Positions 5,868 to 53,627 of a stretch of DNA of 64,000 nt are shown here, one piece after another (position 1 is the first letter of the stretch; each line of letters begins with the position of its first letter). The notes below the pieces were generated by a model, which did not search any database, was not told where the DNA came from, and worked only from the letters and a program-made list of their open reading frames with translations. The stretch is from Lota lota. Taxonomy: Eukaryota; Chordata; Actinopteri; Gadiformes; Lotidae. The DNA is taken from contig JACYXH010000019.1 in assembly GCA_026745465.1 (NCBI GenBank), positions 1,902,456 through 1,966,455 of the forward strand, read 5' to 3'. Both the position numbers and the translations under genes were made by a program.

Positions 5868-6816
5868 CTGCTCAAAAAATAAAGGGAAAACTAAAATAAC
5901 ACATCCTAGATCTGAATGAATGAAATAATCTTAGTAAAAACTTTTTTCTTTACATAGTTGAATGTACTGACAACAAAATCACACAAAAATGATCAATGGA
6001 AATCAAATTTATCAACCCATGGAGGTCTGGATTTGGAGTCACACTCAAAATTAGCTCAGTGTGAACCTGCTTTCATCTGTGAAGAGCACAGGGCGCCAGT
6101 GGCAAATTTGCCAATCTTGGTGTTCTCTGGCAAATGCCAAACGTCCTGCATGGTGTTGGGCTGTAAGCACAACCCCCACCTGTGGACGTCGGGCCCTCAT
6201 ACCACCCTCATGGAGTCTGTTTCTGATCGTTTGAGCAGACACATGCACATTTGTGGCCTGCTGGAGGTCATTTTGCAGGGCTCTGGCAGTACTCCTCCTT
6301 GCACAAAGGCGGAGGTAGCGGTCCTGCTGCTGGGTTGTTGCCCTCCTACGGCCTCCTCCACGTCTCCTGATGTACTGGCCTGTCTCCTGGTAGCGCCTCC
6401 ATGCTCTGGACACTACGCTGACAGACACAGCAAACCTTCTTGCCACAGCTCGCATTGATGTGCCATCCTGGATGAGCTGCACTACCTGAGCCACTTGTGT
6501 GGGTTGTAGACTCCGTCTCATGCTACCACTAGAGTGAAAGCACCGCCAGCATTCAAAAGTGACCAAAACATCAGCCAGGAAGCATAGGAACTGAGAAGTG
6601 GTCTGTGGTCATCACCTGCAGAACCACTCCTTTATTGGGGTGTCTTGCTAATTGCCTATAATTTCCACCTGTTGTCTATTCCATTTGCACAACAGCATGT
6701 GCAATTTATTGTCAATCAGTGTTGCTTCCTACGTGAACAGTTTGATTTCACAGAAGTGTGATTGACTTGGAGTTACATTGTGTTGTTTAAGTGTTCCCTT
6801 TATTTTTTTGAGCAGT
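5868..6816 (-). mobile_element. Tc1/mariner-like DNA transposon, internally deleted
   Basis: The left end ctgctcaaaaaataaaggg (from 5868) is mirrored by the right end ccctttatttttttgagcag (to about 6816), giving terminal inverted repeats flanked by TA-rich DNA. Inside, on the minus strand, is the N-terminal half of a Tc1-type transposase. Related fish elements are about 1.6 kb; this one is about 0.95 kb. The missing piece is the part encoding the rest of the catalytic domain, so the copy cannot encode a full transposase. Confidence 0.9.
6051..6566 (-). pseudogene. Tc1-like transposase, N-terminal half (truncated)
   Basis: A 171-residue frame starts near the right end of the element. It contains a paired/HTH-type DNA-binding region (about residues 15-110: [21 protein letters not shown], split by helix-turn-helix spacing, then an [13 protein letters not shown]-like hook) and the start of the DDE domain, including the first catalytic Asp in LFTDESRF. 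It stops three residues after this. The second Asp and the third acidic residue are absent because of the internal deletion. It is therefore non-autonomous and inactive as an enzyme. Confidence 0.85.
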
Positions 6817-9553: not shown

Positions 9554-11044
9554 ATGAAACAAACAGTGATAATATATCTACTTCTCAGCACCGTGGGTAA
9601 GTAGATCTTCTCTTATTGACTTAGATTTTACCTCTACTCTCACTGCCTTTATAACATCTCTAACGTGTGTGTGTGTGCGCGCGCGTGTATGTTACAGTTT
9701 TGCGCCTCGTCTCACTCTCCGTGTCTCAGACCGTGGAGGTAGAGCCGCGGGACAATGTCACCTTGTCCTGTACCAATGTGTCCAGCTATCCAACACTGGC
9801 TTTCTGGATGAGGGCAGGTCATACATCCAAGCCCATTGTCATCTCATCTGTGTATGGAACTTCTTGCGAGTCAGGGAGATACAATGACGGTATCCAACAA
9901 AGTCGATTTGTAATGGAATGCAGTGTCTCTTTCATCAGTCTTACAATAATTAAAGTGAATTATTCCGATTCTGGTTGGTATTACTGCATTTTTTACAAAG
10001 GGGCGGATGTGGTTATTGTCAATTCAACATTGTTATTGGTTCATGGTAAGATTTCATTTTTCTATGATTATTACATTGTCGATAAACACACTTATATATT
10101 ATATATATATATATGAAATCTTTTTTTATGTATATTTTCATTTAAAGTGAGTGATTTTAAAGAAAACGGCACATTTCATGAAGAGGATGACACAAATTCT
10201 GAAAGTAAGAATCCTTTTTAAATTATTTGTCATTTTGTATAGAGTTGGATTAAACAAGTTGAATAAAAACCTGCAGAAAAAAAGTTTTGCAAACTGTAAA
10301 GAAAAAAATATATACATATAGGCCTAAACCATTTAATCTAATTAATTTCCAATTAAGGCAAAACTAATTAAGAATAAAATTAACTGTACTAAATTTCAGT
10401 TCTACTTGGTTTATGAGATAATATTGGTTCAAATGTGGATCACAGATTTTCATAAGCTTTATCCTCCCAGAAACCCAGCCAGTAAACTGTGATGGAAATT
10501 GGATCATGGTGGGAGGAATCTTTGGTTCTGTGATCATTATCCTCATCATTGTCAGACTAGTTTTTAAAATAACACAGCAAAGAAAACTTCAGAAAGGTCA
10601 GCCAAGTCTTTCTTGCAGAAATAAGTTCCACCACATTGTACCCTTGTTTAAATTGAGGATCCAGATCAAAAGTATTAATTCTCTTTTTCTTAATTATTCT
10701 TTAGATACTAATAATCAACCTCAGCTGCAGGAAAGCCAGGTAAATCGAGTTTAACACATTTCTATACACTTTATATTTTTAAATAGAAACGACATTACTT
10801 TCATTGCCATCTGTGAGGGTAATCCCAATGTAGTTTGAGTATTCTATTGTAAAATGTATAGTGTCAAATTAGATTACAAAGAAATTCTATATATCATAAA
10901 TATAAACATTTATTTGCCCAGGATCAGGAGTCCGACCCAGCTGAAATATGTTACTCGATGTTGAGTTTCCGTCAGAAGAACAGAAGAGGTGGGCCCAGAT
11001 CTAAGAACCTAGAAACGGCCGTTGTGTACACCGCAACCAGATAG
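9554..11044 (+). CDS. Single-IgV type I membrane receptor with ITIM (fish immune-type receptor)
   Basis: Six coding exons join in frame: 9554-9596, 9698-10045, 10148-10204, 10471-10596, 10705-10739 and 10922-11044, giving 243 residues. Exon 1 encodes a signal peptide (MKQTVIIYLLLSTV). Exon 2 is a V-set Ig domain with Cys39, Trp51 and Cys111 in DSGWYYC, plus an extra Cys pair (71, 89) and NxS/T glycosylation sites. Exon 4 encodes the transmembrane helix (about 161-182). The cytoplasmic tail has ICYSML (Tyr214), a canonical ITIM, and a second tyrosine in AVVYTATR (Tyr239) that is not a strict ITSM. The ITIM implies SHP-type phosphatase recruitment and an inhibitory role in leukocytes; ligand unknown. 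It resembles the NITR-like/orphan IgV families of fish; I cannot assign a named orthologue. All introns are GT-AG and short. Confidence 0.85.
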
Positions 11045-13933: not shown

Positions 13934-14698
13934 CTAATAAGCGTAGCGTGCTGGTGGTGGCGGAGGCAACCGCTCAGCGTAGGGGTCCCGGGGGCGGTGC
14001 ACCACCCCGTACGGCGGCGGCGGCGGCCTAGAGGGAGAGAGGCGGGAGCGCTCGTAGCCGTAGCCGTTACCGGCAGGGGGCATGGGGAGGGGCGGCGCCC
14101 GGCGGAGGGGGCTGCGGTCTCGGGCGAAGTACGAGGAAGGCGGCGGGGGCAGGGCGCGGCGATCGTACGGGTCGAGTGGCGCGGCGAGGATGCGCTCGCG
14201 GGCGGCGATCGAGGGAGGGGGGGGGGGGGACGGGGCCGGGGCGGTGGTCGTCGTAGGCGGCCGGCATGCCGTAAGGGCGGGCGCGGTACTTCTCGTAGTA
14301 GTCGACCACGCCGTAGGCTTCGCGCTCACGCTCATAGGGGCGCTCGGCATACACCGCTCGCCTGGGCGGAGGGGGCGGGGGAGGAGGCGTGGGGTAGCCG
14401 GGGGGCATGTGGTGGTGGGGGGGGTGGTGGTGGCCCCTCATGTAGCCGGGCGGCGGTGGGGGGGGTTCGTGTCGGTCGCCCGGATACCCGGGGGGCGGCC
14501 AGTAGCCTCCGTCCTGGGGTGGGGGCGGGTAGTCATCGTGTTCCTCGTGCCGTGGCCGGCTCTTTGAGATCTGCACGTGTATGCGTTTACCTGGGGACGG
14601 ACAGGGTGGTGATTAGGAGGATAAATCGGCAAGGAATGCAGGTCATCGGCAATGACCTTTACCAGTTTTTACTGGATAGCATTGATTAAGACTCCATT

Positions 14699-14784
<86 letters not shown>

Positions 14785-15223
14785 CTACTTTGTAACATTC
14801 ATGTCCCCCCTTACCTTGAAACTCTGTGTTGTCCAGACCCTTAATGGCATCCATGGCCTCCTCTGAGTTGCACATGTGCACGAATGCAAAGTTTTTTACG
14901 ACGGCGCACTCCGACACGCTGCCGTACTCCTCGAAGAGTGCGCGGAGTTCGCCGTCGTCGCCCTTGTCCACGTTGGCCACGTGCAGTTTCACGGCGCCCT
15001 GGTTCTTGCCGTGACTCGCCTCCACGTTGATCTGGGAGCCGTGGAGCTTGTGCAGGTGCAGGGTCTTGATGGCTTTGGTGGCGGCCTTGCGGTCGTCCAT
15101 GTGGACAAAAGCGAAGTTCTTGATGATGGAGCACTCGGTGACGGTGCCGTGCTCTTTGAAGAGGGCCTCTATCTCCTCCTGGTCCGCCTCCCGTGGGAGG
15201 TTGCCCACGAATATCTTCACCAT
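13934..15223 (-). CDS. rbm4: RBM4/Lark-family RNA-binding protein, copy A (frameshift in exon 2)
   Basis: Two coding exons run on the minus strand: 15223-14815 and 14590-13934, with a GT-AG intron. Exon 1 encodes two RRMs (about residues 2-70 and 78-137) with RNP motifs [14 protein letters not shown] and [14 protein letters not shown]. Exon 2 encodes KRIHVQIS followed by a Pro/Tyr/Arg-rich tail with [22 protein letters not shown] and [11 protein letters not shown], ending RYAY. RBM4 proteins regulate alternative splicing and translation. The CCHC zinc knuckle that follows RRM2 in mammalian RBM4 is not present. The summed exon length is 1066 nt, one more than a multiple of three. The frame breaks at the 13-G run 14217-14229, and restoring the frame there joins the conserved tail. 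A homopolymer consensus error is likelier than a true null, but the sequence as given is frameshifted. Confidence 0.88.
14702..14782. repeat. (CA)n microsatellite in rbm4 copy A intron
   Basis: About 40 CA dinucleotides without interruption, lying some 30 bp inside the intron from the exon 1 donor. Confidence 0.98.
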
Positions 15224-16790
15224 TCTACTTACGGATCTGTTTCAAGAATGTCAATATGGGTCAATTGTATGTGTCAAGTCCTTGGTGTATTACCAGACAA
15301 AGTAATGAGAGCTGGTTATTATTTGCAGTGATTATAGTGATTATTTGCAGTGATTATTTGATTTCTCATATTCTCCCATCTTTTTTACAAGCCTGCTAGA
15401 CAACATCTCATGGAAACAAGAATATGTGATGGTGATACAACCCTCAGCAACACATGCACTAGTTTGCCTCGTGCCATCTACAGCACTAGGCTATGTTAGC
15501 TACACTTACGTCATATTCAGTCATAACCAAATAATATTAAACATTTACGCATACGCAACAAGTGTTAATGCTTTGGAAATACATTTGCTTTACATTAACC
15601 AATATACACAGTGCACCGCGGACGAAAGAATCAATTTCTGATGAAACAGCGCCTAATGCTAAGTAGCTAGCTAGGCCATACTATCAACAAAGCCCCACAA
15701 TCCATCCACGGTTAATACCGACGTCCATTGCCTAATAAAACTACAAATACTTTCATTTTATATTACCAAGTTGTTTTAAAGTTGACATCATGTATAATTG
15801 ATCGATTAACAATATAATACGTAATTTGAATACCTTTTAACAGGGCGCCGGTAGCCTCAATGAATGGCGTTCAACCTTTCCTCAGACTGTCAGAAGCTTC
15901 TTCTTCTGCTTTTGTTTTTGTGGTGAAAGGCACCTATCTTATTGGCGTATTACTGCCACCTAAAGGCCTGGAGTGTGGATCATCAACTTGACAGGACACT
16001 TAAACAAATAATGGAAAAAATATAATAAAAATAAAAGTGATTATATGTTCATACTTTTTCCCACTGACTTTCCTAAATGACCCTATACAATTGCTATAAT
16101 TTGCTTGACTTAATTATGCAAACATTTTACCTCGTTCTGTTGACAGCTTCTACATTGCAGCAATGCGTGCTCACTGTCTCTGTTTCATTGCAGTGTATGC
16201 AAGTTCCTGTTGTGTGTTTCCAGTTGTATGTAGTCTGTGATTGATGTATGTCCTATCCGGGTTATAATATTTTATTATGTACTATTCCTGGCCCCATTCT
16301 TTTCAACGCCCACATGATTTTGAATTCTATATAGATGTTTTGTCTGTTTCACTGGTATGGTCCCAATACTCTTGCCAGATATGGTTTGGTCAGAAGCTCC
16401 GCCCCCCTGGCCGTGAAATGTTATCCGTTTTTAACAAAGTTATTCATTTATGGTTTATGGAGGGAGCAAGCGTTGTCCTCCCACTCTTCCTCGATAAACT
16501 TCCCATACAATTATGTATTGGAATGTAAGTAAAACGGTACTATTTAACCGTCTGTGTCTGTTGTGGATCCAAACAGTATTTGAGTAGAACACACAAAAAG
16601 CATACAGTGATGTTCATTTCACGTGCTTCAAAAGTTATTCCCTGTTGTTGATGTCACCGCGGGCAAAACCGATGCCGCTATTAACTTCACGTTACATCAT
16701 TCTGGGAAGTACCATCCCGCCCCCATGATGAGCGCGAGGGAGTGAGTTCAATAAAAGGGGAGGGTTTTTCTTGGCTTTCTACGCTTTGTT
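15224..16790. other. Intergenic: upstream of rbm4 copy A and of tifa
   Basis: This holds the 5' region of minus-strand rbm4 copy A, probably with an untranslated first exon that I cannot place, and the upstream region of plus-strand tifa. The two genes are divergent. I see no other coding sequence. Confidence 0.5.
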
Positions 16791-16919: not shown

Positions 16920-17769
16920 GTAGGCACTTACAGATGTTTCAAAGTGACGCACAGAGCCATTTAGAAAGTCGATGCCTTTTCTTTGAGTAGGCATATGAGG
17001 ATGAGTGGGATAGTAGTGAGCCTATTCATACGCTTGAATTAATGCAATTCATAGGCCTACATCAACTCGATTTTGGTTTTCATAAAAGTATATTGTTTTG
17101 TTTAGTGTCTCTGTGTCTCTCTCTAATATTCTTTCACTTTTGGTATCTTAAAGGGAATTTAAAAATGTGTCAATAGCAATATTTTCTTAAATAGGGTAAT
17201 TCTTAAAAGAGATTCCACAATAAAATAAATTCCATATTTAGGATTGGATAGCAATATCGTATCATTATATATTGTTTGTAAAATTAAACAAAAACATGAG
17301 CTGTGTGATATGGTCGACATTTTTCAATAAAGAGAACAGACCTCAGTTGCCTTTCTGAAGTTTGTGTTGCAATAATAATTGTGCAACACAAACAAAATGA
17401 CAATGTGGTTATCTTCACTGGTTCTGGGAACACATCATAGATTTCACATCCTTTTGGCTGTTCTTACACAAATGTTTTACAGACAGAGACTTCTATGAGT
17501 TTAAAGCAATACTTTTTAAAGGATAAGCACTGGATTAATATTATAACACATAATGTCAATGTATCCATTGCTGTCATTATGGAGCAGTGGTCACTAGTTA
17601 CTATTAAGTAATCGAACACACGCTTTTATCCGAAGCAACAGTGGAGTTTGGGTTTGTAAACCCAATCATTGTTAACTTGTTCCTCGTTATTCTGTATTGC
17701 ATTGCAGACACTCACCGCCTTACCATCCAACAGCGCGACAGTATCCCAAATCCGTTGCCCAAATCCGTC

Positions 17770-18501
17770 ATGGATGTCTCCCAGACCATGGAGACCGAGG
17801 AGGACCAGTTCACCTGCCTCTACATCAGCTTCTACCACCCACAGCAAGGCGCGCAGGGCATGTTCCGCCTGCTGCCCCTGGGCCCAGGCGCTGGGAGCCA
17901 CGTCCACCCAGCCGACGAGCCCCTGAGGTTCGGCCGCGACCGGCAGGCCTGTACCTTCGCCCTGGCCGACCCCCGCGTCTCCCGCAAGCAGCTATCCGTC
18001 CAAGCCTTCCGGACTCCCCGGAGCCCCTACCTCCAGTTCACCGTGCAGAGCCTGAGCCAGCGGGGGCGAGTGTTGGTCAACGGCGTCTCCCTGGTCTACC
18101 TGGAGAGGGTGGACCTCGGGGCCACGGCCCTGGTGAAGTTTGGCGACTACGAGATGCTGATCCGAGTGGAGCAGGGCGAGGCCATGGCCAGCTTTGAAGT
18201 GCTGTTTGACGTACTTGAGGCCCGGCCGTCGAGGGTGGAGGCGGAGGCAGTACCCAGCATCGCTCCCGTCATGGAGACGGGTTGGTCGGACAGACCAGCA
18301 GACCTGAGGAGCCAGGAACACCTGGGGAGCCAGGGACCCATGGAGAGACAGGGACCCATGGAGAGACAGGGACCCATGGAGAGACAGGGACTCATGGAGA
18401 GACAGGAACCCATAGAGACACAGGAACCCATAGAGAGACAGGGACCCATAGAGAGACAGGGACCCATGGAGTTGGATGAGACCCTTCTGTATCTGATGTG
18501 A
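17770..18501 (+). CDS. tifa: TIFA, TRAF-interacting FHA-domain adaptor
   Basis: One uninterrupted 243-residue coding exon. The ATG at 17770 is chosen because it puts Thr9 in the context METEED, matching the phospho-Thr9 of mammalian TIFA. The FHA domain covers about residues 15-150: FGRDRQ, then VSRKQLS, then a late FGDYEMLI strand. In mammals ALPK1, triggered by ADP-heptose, phosphorylates Thr9; TIFA then oligomerises through FHA-pThr9 contacts and recruits TRAF6 to activate NF-kB. The last residues PMELDE (232-237) fit the TRAF6 motif PxExx(acidic) at the place of the mammalian site. Between FHA and C-terminus is an 18-bp minisatellite that makes this protein longer than the roughly 184-residue human one. 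The GC-rich coding sequence stands out from its AT-rich flanks. Confidence 0.92.
   Translation: MDVSQTMETEEDQFTCLYISFYHPQQGAQGMFRLLPLGPGAGSHVHPADEPLRFGRDRQACTFALADPRVSRKQLSVQAFRTPRSPYLQFTVQSLSQRGRVLVNGVSLVYLERVDLGATALVKFGDYEMLIRVEQGEAMASFEVLFDVLEARPSRVEAEAVPSIAPVMETGWSDRPADLRSQEHLGSQGPMERQGPMERQGPMERQGLMERQEPIETQEPIERQGPIERQGPMELDETLLYLM
18331..18471 (+). repeat. 18-bp coding minisatellite in tifa
   Basis: About 7.8 copies of an 18-bp unit encode (Q)GPMER hexapeptides. In order, the units read GPMERQ three times, GLMERQ, EPIETQ, EPIERQ, GPIERQ and then GPMEL. Being a multiple of three, copy-number change would not break the frame. One variant unit reads PIETQE (residues 214-219), which also fits the TRAF6-binding consensus. 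Confidence 0.95.
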
Positions 18502-23797: not shown

Positions 23798-24984
23798 CTA
23801 ATAGCCAGCATAGCGTGGTGGCGGCGGCGGCGGAGCCCCGTACGGTTCCCTGGGTCTGGGCAGTGCGTACATGGGGGCCCGGGGCACCGGAGACAGCCGG
23901 GACCGCTCGTACGAGTAGCCGTTGCCGGATGGGGGCGGCGGGGTAGGGAGAGGCGTGCGCCGGATGGGGCTCCTGTCCCTGGGGTAGTAGGCAGCAGCCG
24001 AGGTGGGTGGAGGAGGGGCCAGGGCACGACCATCGTAGGGGTCGTAGGGACGTTCCCTCGCAGAGGGGGGTGGTGGTGGAATTGGGGGTGCCCGCCTGTC
24101 CATGTAGGAAGGAGGGGCGTAGGAGGGGGGCGTGGCGTACGACGGGGGGGCCGGGTAGGAAGGCGGGGCAGCAGAGGCGTAGGGCGCTGGGGCGTAGGGT
24201 CTTGCCCGGTATTTCTCGTAGTAGTCGACCACACTGTATCCGTCCCGCTCACCATACGGGTGCTCCGGGTAGGCGGGCCGACGTGGAGGAGGTGGTGGGG
24301 GTGGGGGAGGAGGGTACCCATGCATGCGACCTCTGTAGTGCATGTCAGGATGGTCTCCTGGGTAATGACGGGGGGGGAAGTAACCCGGAGGAGGGTACTC
24401 CTCCTCTTCCTCTCCGCCCCTCGGGCGGTTCCTCGACAGCTGAACGTGAATGCGCTTGCCTGCAAAAAATCACTTTTTTTTAATAAATCACCAAACATCG
24501 ACAACTCTATACAATTTAGCAACCAAAGGCTTGCCTACAAGCAGGAGTGGAAAACATGCAAAACATAAAACATACCTTGGAATTCAGTGTTGTCCAGTCC
24601 CTTGATGGCGTCCATTGCCTCCTCGCTGTTGGGCATGTGCACGAAGGCGAAGTTCTTGATGATTGCGCACTCCGACACGTCGCCGTACTCCTCGAACAGC
24701 CCACGGAGCTCATCGTCGTGGCCCTTCTCGACGTTGGCTATGTGGAGTTTCACGGGTCCGTTATTTTTGCCCCGGCTGGGCTCCACGTTGATCGGCCGGC
24801 CGTGAAGTTTGTGGCCGTGCAGCTCGCGGATGGCTTTGGTCGCGGATTTCCGGTCCTCCATATGAACGAAGGCGTAGTTTTTGTACTTGGCACACTCTGT
24901 GACCTGGCCGTACGGCGTAAACAGAGCCTCCAGCTCGTCCTTCTCTGCCTCCTGGGCGATGTTTCCAATAAAGATCTTCACCAT
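23798..24984 (-). CDS. rbm4: RBM4/Lark-family RNA-binding protein, copy B
   Basis: Two coding exons run on the minus strand, 24984-24576 and 24459-23798, giving 356 residues with an intact frame. Exon 1 is exactly as long as in copy A (409 nt), and the intron falls in the same place and phase, inside the Gly codon of EFQG-KRIHVQ. RRM1 has IFIGNI and [11 protein letters not shown]2 has LHIANV and NFAFVHMP. The tail has [24 protein letters not shown] and [11 protein letters not shown] and ends RYAGY. As in copy A, no CCHC zinc knuckle follows RRM2. The start is ACCATGG, a strong Kozak context. Together with copy A it forms a same-strand paralogous pair enclosing tifa. Confidence 0.93.
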
Positions 24985-25462
24985 GGTTACGGCTCAGCGA
25001 CGACCTCTGATAGACATGACAAGACCAACAGAGTTTAAAACAGGCGTGCGTGTTGTGTTAATGGCGGTGAGCAGTATGAGGAAGTCCAAGTTGGCGTGCT
25101 ACCTAACTAGCTGGGTGACTTAAAAGCAGACAATGAACCCGTAGCACGTACACAGGCGTCACAAAGTCGCTGTCCAATGTCGATATCATCTATTCAAATA
25201 GATATAACATATATATTGGTCTAAAGAACACGTGTGTTGCTAGCACCTTTGCTATCCTAATTAGTCCATGCTAACTAAAGCTAATTGTAGCTTTTTCCCC
25301 CATCTTACCAAACTAATATATTTTGTGAGAATTTATGACCATTCCTGCCGTGCAGATTTCAGAAATTATCTGAAATACACCTTAAAAACAAATCTAAGTT
25401 GGATTAAATGCGATTTAAACTTACCAAGAACCAACTACGGAGTCGAACACCGTCGAGCGATA

Positions 25463-38082: not shown

Positions 38083-53627
<15,545 letters not shown>

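Follow-up and report, generated by a model that had tools for sequence, protein, structure and literature searches.

The burbot, Lota lota, tifa gene lies in the window (the whole stretch of 64,000 nucleotides that was analysed, belonging to a 575-Mb assembly of 867 contigs) as a single coding exon preceded by a putative splice acceptor, recognised by eye (AG at 17706-17707). The features of the gene and its product are collected in Table 1. Double-RRM genes, which we take to be RBM4-like, flank tifa, one on each side (14672-15241 and 24538-24993, both on the reverse strand). The window also holds two frames with matches to the fragile X-related C-terminal core, of which one falls short of the Pfam cut-off (41175-42553, reverse strand), a frame with a match to the helix-turn-helix of Tc3-type transposases (6054-6608, reverse strand, 71.2 bits), and an immunoglobulin V-set match (9664-10113, forward strand).

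Table 1. Features of the burbot tifa gene and of the protein it encodes, in window coordinates.
Feature	Position	Strand	Basis
tifa coding sequence, 243 aa, one exon	17770..18501	+	start codon at 17770, another in-frame ATG at 17788
Thr9 in METEED, likely counterpart of human TIFA Thr9 (ALPK1 target)	17794..17796	+	sequence position
FHA domain, residues 53-125	17926..18144	+	Pfam FHA, E = 6.2e-6, 27 bits against a cut-off of 20.7; aligned to solved TIFA
PVME (166-169), counterpart of human TRAF2-binding Pro159-x-x-Glu162	18265..18276	+	alignment to solved TIFA
Two degenerate units, LRSQEH and LGSQGP, lacking an internal PxE core	18304..18339	+	12/18 and 15/18 identity to unit consensus
Seven 18-bp units, MERQGP, MERQGP, MERQGL, MERQEP, IETQEP, IERQGP, IERQGP	18340..18465	+	in-frame units, TRF
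PIETQE (214-219), sole repeat-derived full TRAF6 consensus match	18409..18426	+	consensus match
PMELDE (232-237), C-terminal TRAF6 motif, counterpart of human PTEMDE 176-181	18463..18480	+	consensus match

The encoded protein is a probable fish orthologue of TIFA. All seven PDB sequences that match it at E-values up to 0.1 belong to TIFA (six, 6e-23 to 6.3e-21, the best being 6l9w at 6e-23) or TIFAB (one, 6.5e-12), and two characters of a TIFA orthologue are present: an FHA domain related to that of TIFA by PDB comparison and Pfam, and a C-terminal TRAF6 motif of the form PxExx[acidic/aromatic]. Thr9 and the two glutamates that follow it are in place, in a context that in human TIFA is presumably DADTEE, yet they stand one residue off register with the solved TIFA chain in an ungapped alignment. 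Thr9 is the residue of human TIFA targeted by ALPK1 (PMC9704527). The part of the protein outside the array (174 aa) matches the genome at one place, so that a single tifa copy was found; with the whole protein as query there are 51 matches, the 50 others being confined to residues 157-238 (tail and repeat). Relatives of tifa were also sought among viral and prokaryote contigs, sets that are silent on other fish, where none of the 9 and 133 pattern-matching stretches, respectively, was confirmed.

Through TIFA, the alarm raised by ADP-heptose and ALPK1 reaches TRAF2 and TRAF6. PDB comparison identifies a TRAF6 MATH exon (L026 on contig C659), of which the best match is 6myd, presumably the zebrafish TRAF6 structure. 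Section 6 of PMC9597381 names positions that contact the peptide or shape its site; of 17 positions taken from these, 16 are identical to human TRAF6 and one differs (Leu457 to Gln). The PF21355 profile has 21 matches in the genome; PDB comparison of two of them identifies the TRAF6 exon and a TRAF4-like one (L025), and a further TRAF6 copy is possible among the remaining 19. The PF18048 profile, applied for TRAF6, has no match here or in any control genome and is therefore uninformative. An ALPK1-like kinase exon is found on contig C783 (L055, 2e-16 by PDB comparison). Taken with tifa and the TRAF6 MATH exon, it indicates that the parts of an ALPK1-TIFA-TRAF6 pathway are present in the genome. 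Other alpha-kinase loci are present as well (L046, L050 and L052-L054). The kinase exons of L047, L048, L049 and L051 were considered as ALPK1 and rejected, L047 matching the TRP channel kinase 1ia9 at 2.7e-42 and ALPK1 at 0.0018. These four exons, of which L047 alone was compared with the PDB, are nearly identical and of TRP-channel type, and lie at four loci on four contigs; apparent partial tandem copies of the exon's end come after it at L048 and L051.

The tail of the protein is encoded in part by an 18-bp tandem array (18323-18471, 8.3 copies, 92% matches and score 235 by TRF), in which bases 18 positions apart agree at 131 of 144 positions, as against no more than 63 in any of 2000 shuffled coding sequences. 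In the register of the reading frame, the array occupies 18304-18465 (162 bp, nine units): two degenerate units (CTGAGGAGCCAGGAACAC and CTGGGGAGCCAGGGACCC) are followed by seven of the type ATGGAGAGACAGGGACCC, each with 15 to 18 of 18 bases equal to the unit consensus, and then by ATGGAGTTGGATGAG, which encodes MELDE, such that the array adjoins PMELDE directly and in register. An in-frame 18-bp repeat near the C-terminus, as the preliminary description had it, is thus confirmed; its extent of 18331 to 18471 does contain array, but starts inside the second degenerate unit, the in-frame start being 18304. Tandem repeats are prone to collapse or polishing error, and a single assembly lies behind the count. 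It is nevertheless very unlikely that an artefact of this kind accounts for the number of units or for their variants, for an array of 162 bp is spannable by ordinary reads, the frame is intact and the variant units are distinct. Four distinct substitutions (P>L, G>E, M>I and R>T) occur among the seven full units, and all four change a residue, as would 44 of the 54 possible single changes of the unit; therefore the pattern shows neither constraint on the hexapeptide nor its absence.

The Cementoin profile (PF10511) scores above its cut-off on the protein (best stretch 211-232, E = 2.8e-8), as it would if the hexapeptides served transglutaminase as a substrate, in the manner of the trappin cementoin repeats. 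This identity was rejected, and such a role is scarcely credible, since conceptual translations of both of the other 18-bp arrays used as controls match as well or better (7.8e-15 for L018 and 2.6e-10 for L011, against 3.7e-10 for TIFA residues 179-243), and residues 179-231 contain no lysine. The match therefore seems to follow from the Q-x-P hexapeptide period. PF10511 is over its cut-off on all three Q-x-P hexapeptide arrays (window 18304-18501, L011 and L018), and is a likely source of false annotation.

The TRAF6-interacting motif is given as PxExx[FYWHDE] by a published screen, which also lists three negative features: Pro at +1 to +5 (0 of 236 binders versus 386 of 1200 non-binders), Arg or Lys at +3 to +5 (2 of 236 versus 287 of 1200, Table 2 of that study), and a large or medium residue at +3 (4 of 236 versus 396 of 1200) (PMC9597381). 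The protein contains two matches to this consensus, PIETQE and PMELDE; the mean for shuffled versions is 0.44, and 327 of 5000 have at least two. PMELDE fits the consensus, as previously claimed, and has both the position and the form of the TRAF6 site, its human counterpart PTEMDE being one for which an effect of E178A is on record (PMC12457700, PMC9704527). PMELDE itself has Leu at +3, one of the listed negative features, which counts against a strict use of the screen and against the explanation preferred below; because this positional counterpart of a proven human site departs from them, the rules of the screen are not sharp. The authors of the screen state that native TRAF6 ligands are not optimised, and large residues at +3 were tolerated in a peptide array in the CD40 context (PMC9597381).

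There are seven PxE cores in all (three PMERQG, two PIERQG, PIETQE and PMELDE), and six of them lie in the repeat, to whose unit the preliminary description ascribed the PxE core. The five PMERQG and PIERQG cores fail the consensus at its last position, where Gly replaces the acidic or aromatic residue at +5, and they have Arg at +3, within the span (+3 to +5) where Arg and Lys are disfavoured. These common units look incapable of docking TRAF6, and their gain or loss should leave TRAF6 valency unchanged; the earlier proposal that copy number alters this valency is therefore not supported. PIETQE, in contrast to the common units, does satisfy the whole consensus, as had been claimed for it, and has none of the three negative features. 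Further such sites are not within easy reach: a single G>A step in a GGA codon yields PMERQE or PIERQE, but of the 486 possible single-base changes in 18304-18465, the seven that create a new consensus match all leave it with a negative feature, and a clean site requires two changes in a common unit. The proposed effect on TRAF6 valency is thus supported only in part.

The sole unit with the R>T change also has Pro at 0 and Glu at +5, so that the changes that make a TRAF6 site coincide, which counts against regarding the array as a tolerated spacer. When the observed changes, two of them G>E, were placed randomly among the units (1176 placements), at least one consensus match always resulted, and an Arg-free match in 25% of placements. 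Because an equally clean unit arises this often, PIETQE shows no sign of selection for it, and it may be a weak second TRAF6 site gained by chance. It is unlikely that the repeat units add TRAF6 sites such that copy-number and sequence variants tune the valency of the adaptor: PIETQE, the seven single changes that yield a consensus match and the conserved contact positions of the TRAF6 MATH exon would suit this explanation, but the remaining five repeat cores each bear Arg at +3, a match is certain and a clean one not rare under random placement, and TIFA valency is already supplied by oligomerisation through phosphorylated Thr9 and the FHA domain (PMC9704527).

In human TIFA, residues 144-184 form a disordered tail that contacts TRAF2 through Gln150-Glu151 and Pro159-x-x-Glu162 and TRAF6 through 176-181 (PMC12457700). 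In the ungapped alignment to solved TIFA, the burbot counterpart of Gln150-Glu151 reads Val-Glu. TRAF2 motifs inside the repeat were considered and rejected, as the protein contains neither [PSAT]x[QE]E nor PxQxxD, and PxxE is found only at residues 47 and 166. From proline to proline, PVME and PMELDE are 66 residues apart, versus 17 for the corresponding motifs of human TIFA (PMC12457700), an excess of 49 residues or about eight units, and disorder-promoting residue types make up 77% of residues 179-231 versus 51% of residues 13-150. Compared with the human sequence, then, the array clearly makes for a longer stretch of tail from the TRAF2-type PxxE to the TRAF6 motif. Within its TRAF6 motif, human TIFA has a further residue that ALPK1 phosphorylates in vitro, Thr177, and the phospho-mimic T177D blocks the binding of TRAF6 (PMC9704527). 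In burbot this residue is Met233 (18466-18468), and the corresponding residue of the repeat cores is Met or Ile; the human-type phosphorylation brake is therefore missing from the motif.

The array has relatives elsewhere in the genome. With 18300-18501 (the array and its flanks to the stop codon) as query, at least 42 places match, itself included, with several places to a single locus. Ten places outside tifa, chosen by their likeness to the tifa array, were examined with TRF, and all ten are tandem arrays with reported periods of 16-21; the other ten of the 20 loci are tifa itself or overlap those examined. The array on contig C363 (L008, 1366-1618) has a period of 16 and the unit AGAGACAGAACCATGG, shares the 14-base core CCATGGAGAGACAG in tandem, has stops in all three forward frames, and carries the same CCATGG>CCATAG change that lies behind Met>Ile in tifa. 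In an exact search of the genome, the tandem-core pattern was found in tifa (two overlapping places) and on C363 (one), and its reversed control was not found. The repeat unit is thus not unique to TIFA, which weakens but does not overturn the case that the array originated by copying the TRAF6 motif.

It is nonetheless conceivable, if somewhat improbable, that the array was seeded by duplication of the first half of the TRAF6 motif (PME) together with the upstream RQG, the units being half-motif copies without the distal half; this origin is compatible with the explanation preferred below. The motif stands in the register of the array, and the first nine bases of PMELDE (CCCATGGAG) are found in frame both in the unit consensus and in three of the seven units, so that the array could have copied the motif, a point against a merely tolerated spacer. 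The terminal block agrees with the unit at 10 of 18 bases, a figure reached by only 3 of 172 in-frame control 18-mers, but reached also by the 18 bases that immediately precede the array (18286-18303), which are outside those controls. The exact nine bases are in no more than three units and recur at unrelated places in the window (6016 and 59122), and a PxE is missing from both degenerate units at the 5' end. In human TIFA, whose tail peptide is SLCSSQSSSPTEMDENES (PMC9704527), the motif occurs but such an array does not; the motif is therefore probably older than the array.

The explanation that we consider fairly probable is that what is probably a fish TIFA orthologue tolerates an ordinary coding minisatellite in its presumably disordered tail, where it lengthens a tether and its common units are not TRAF6 sites. 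The docking site for TRAF6 would be the C-terminal PMELDE, as PTEMDE is in human TIFA, and the array would act as a longer tether between this site and the TRAF2-type PxxE, changing in length by six-residue steps with each change of copy number. The common units, with Arg at +3 and Gly at +5, would not bind TRAF6, strong selection would be absent, and PIETQE would be a possible weak second site, gained by chance. We think that passive lengthening is the main effect of the array, and that it may or may not matter for function. Distinctly unlikely is a combined scheme in which an array derived from the TRAF6 motif regenerates near-motifs, copy number sets the tether from TRAF2 to TRAF6, and rare units with double changes, like PIETQE, add real TRAF6 sites; if true, it would mean an innate adaptor variable in both length and valency within a fish population. 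The array would offer a natural six-residue ruler between docking motifs, with which tether length might be tested against motif number in a polymer-driven pathway.

In the open-licence literature on TIFA, TRAF6 motifs, fish and minisatellites, none of the titles and abstract openings among the papers listed mentions such an array in TIFA. Coding minisatellites with hexapeptide units have central units that are alike and a degenerate 5' edge. Like them, the tifa array has an 18-bp period that preserves the frame; unlike them, it runs straight into a probably functional short linear motif. Among TRAF6-interacting motifs, PMELDE and PIETQE fit the known form, whereas the common repeat units do not. 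Burbot TIFA resembles human and mouse TIFA in its FHA domain, in Thr-Glu-Glu near the N-terminus, in a TRAF2-type PxxE and in a C-terminal PxExxE TRAF6 motif (PMC12457700, PMC9704527), and differs from them in the hexapeptide array between its two TRAF motifs and in having Met233 for human Thr177 and, by alignment to solved TIFA, Val for the counterpart of Gln150. A further parallel is zebrafish STING, in which, according to a review, a C-terminal extension recruits TRAF6 (PMC9780328). Both are immune adaptors of fish, and in STING the C-terminal tail gained recruitment of TRAF6; there the recruitment has been reported, whereas the extra match in burbot TIFA is a candidate within a repeat.
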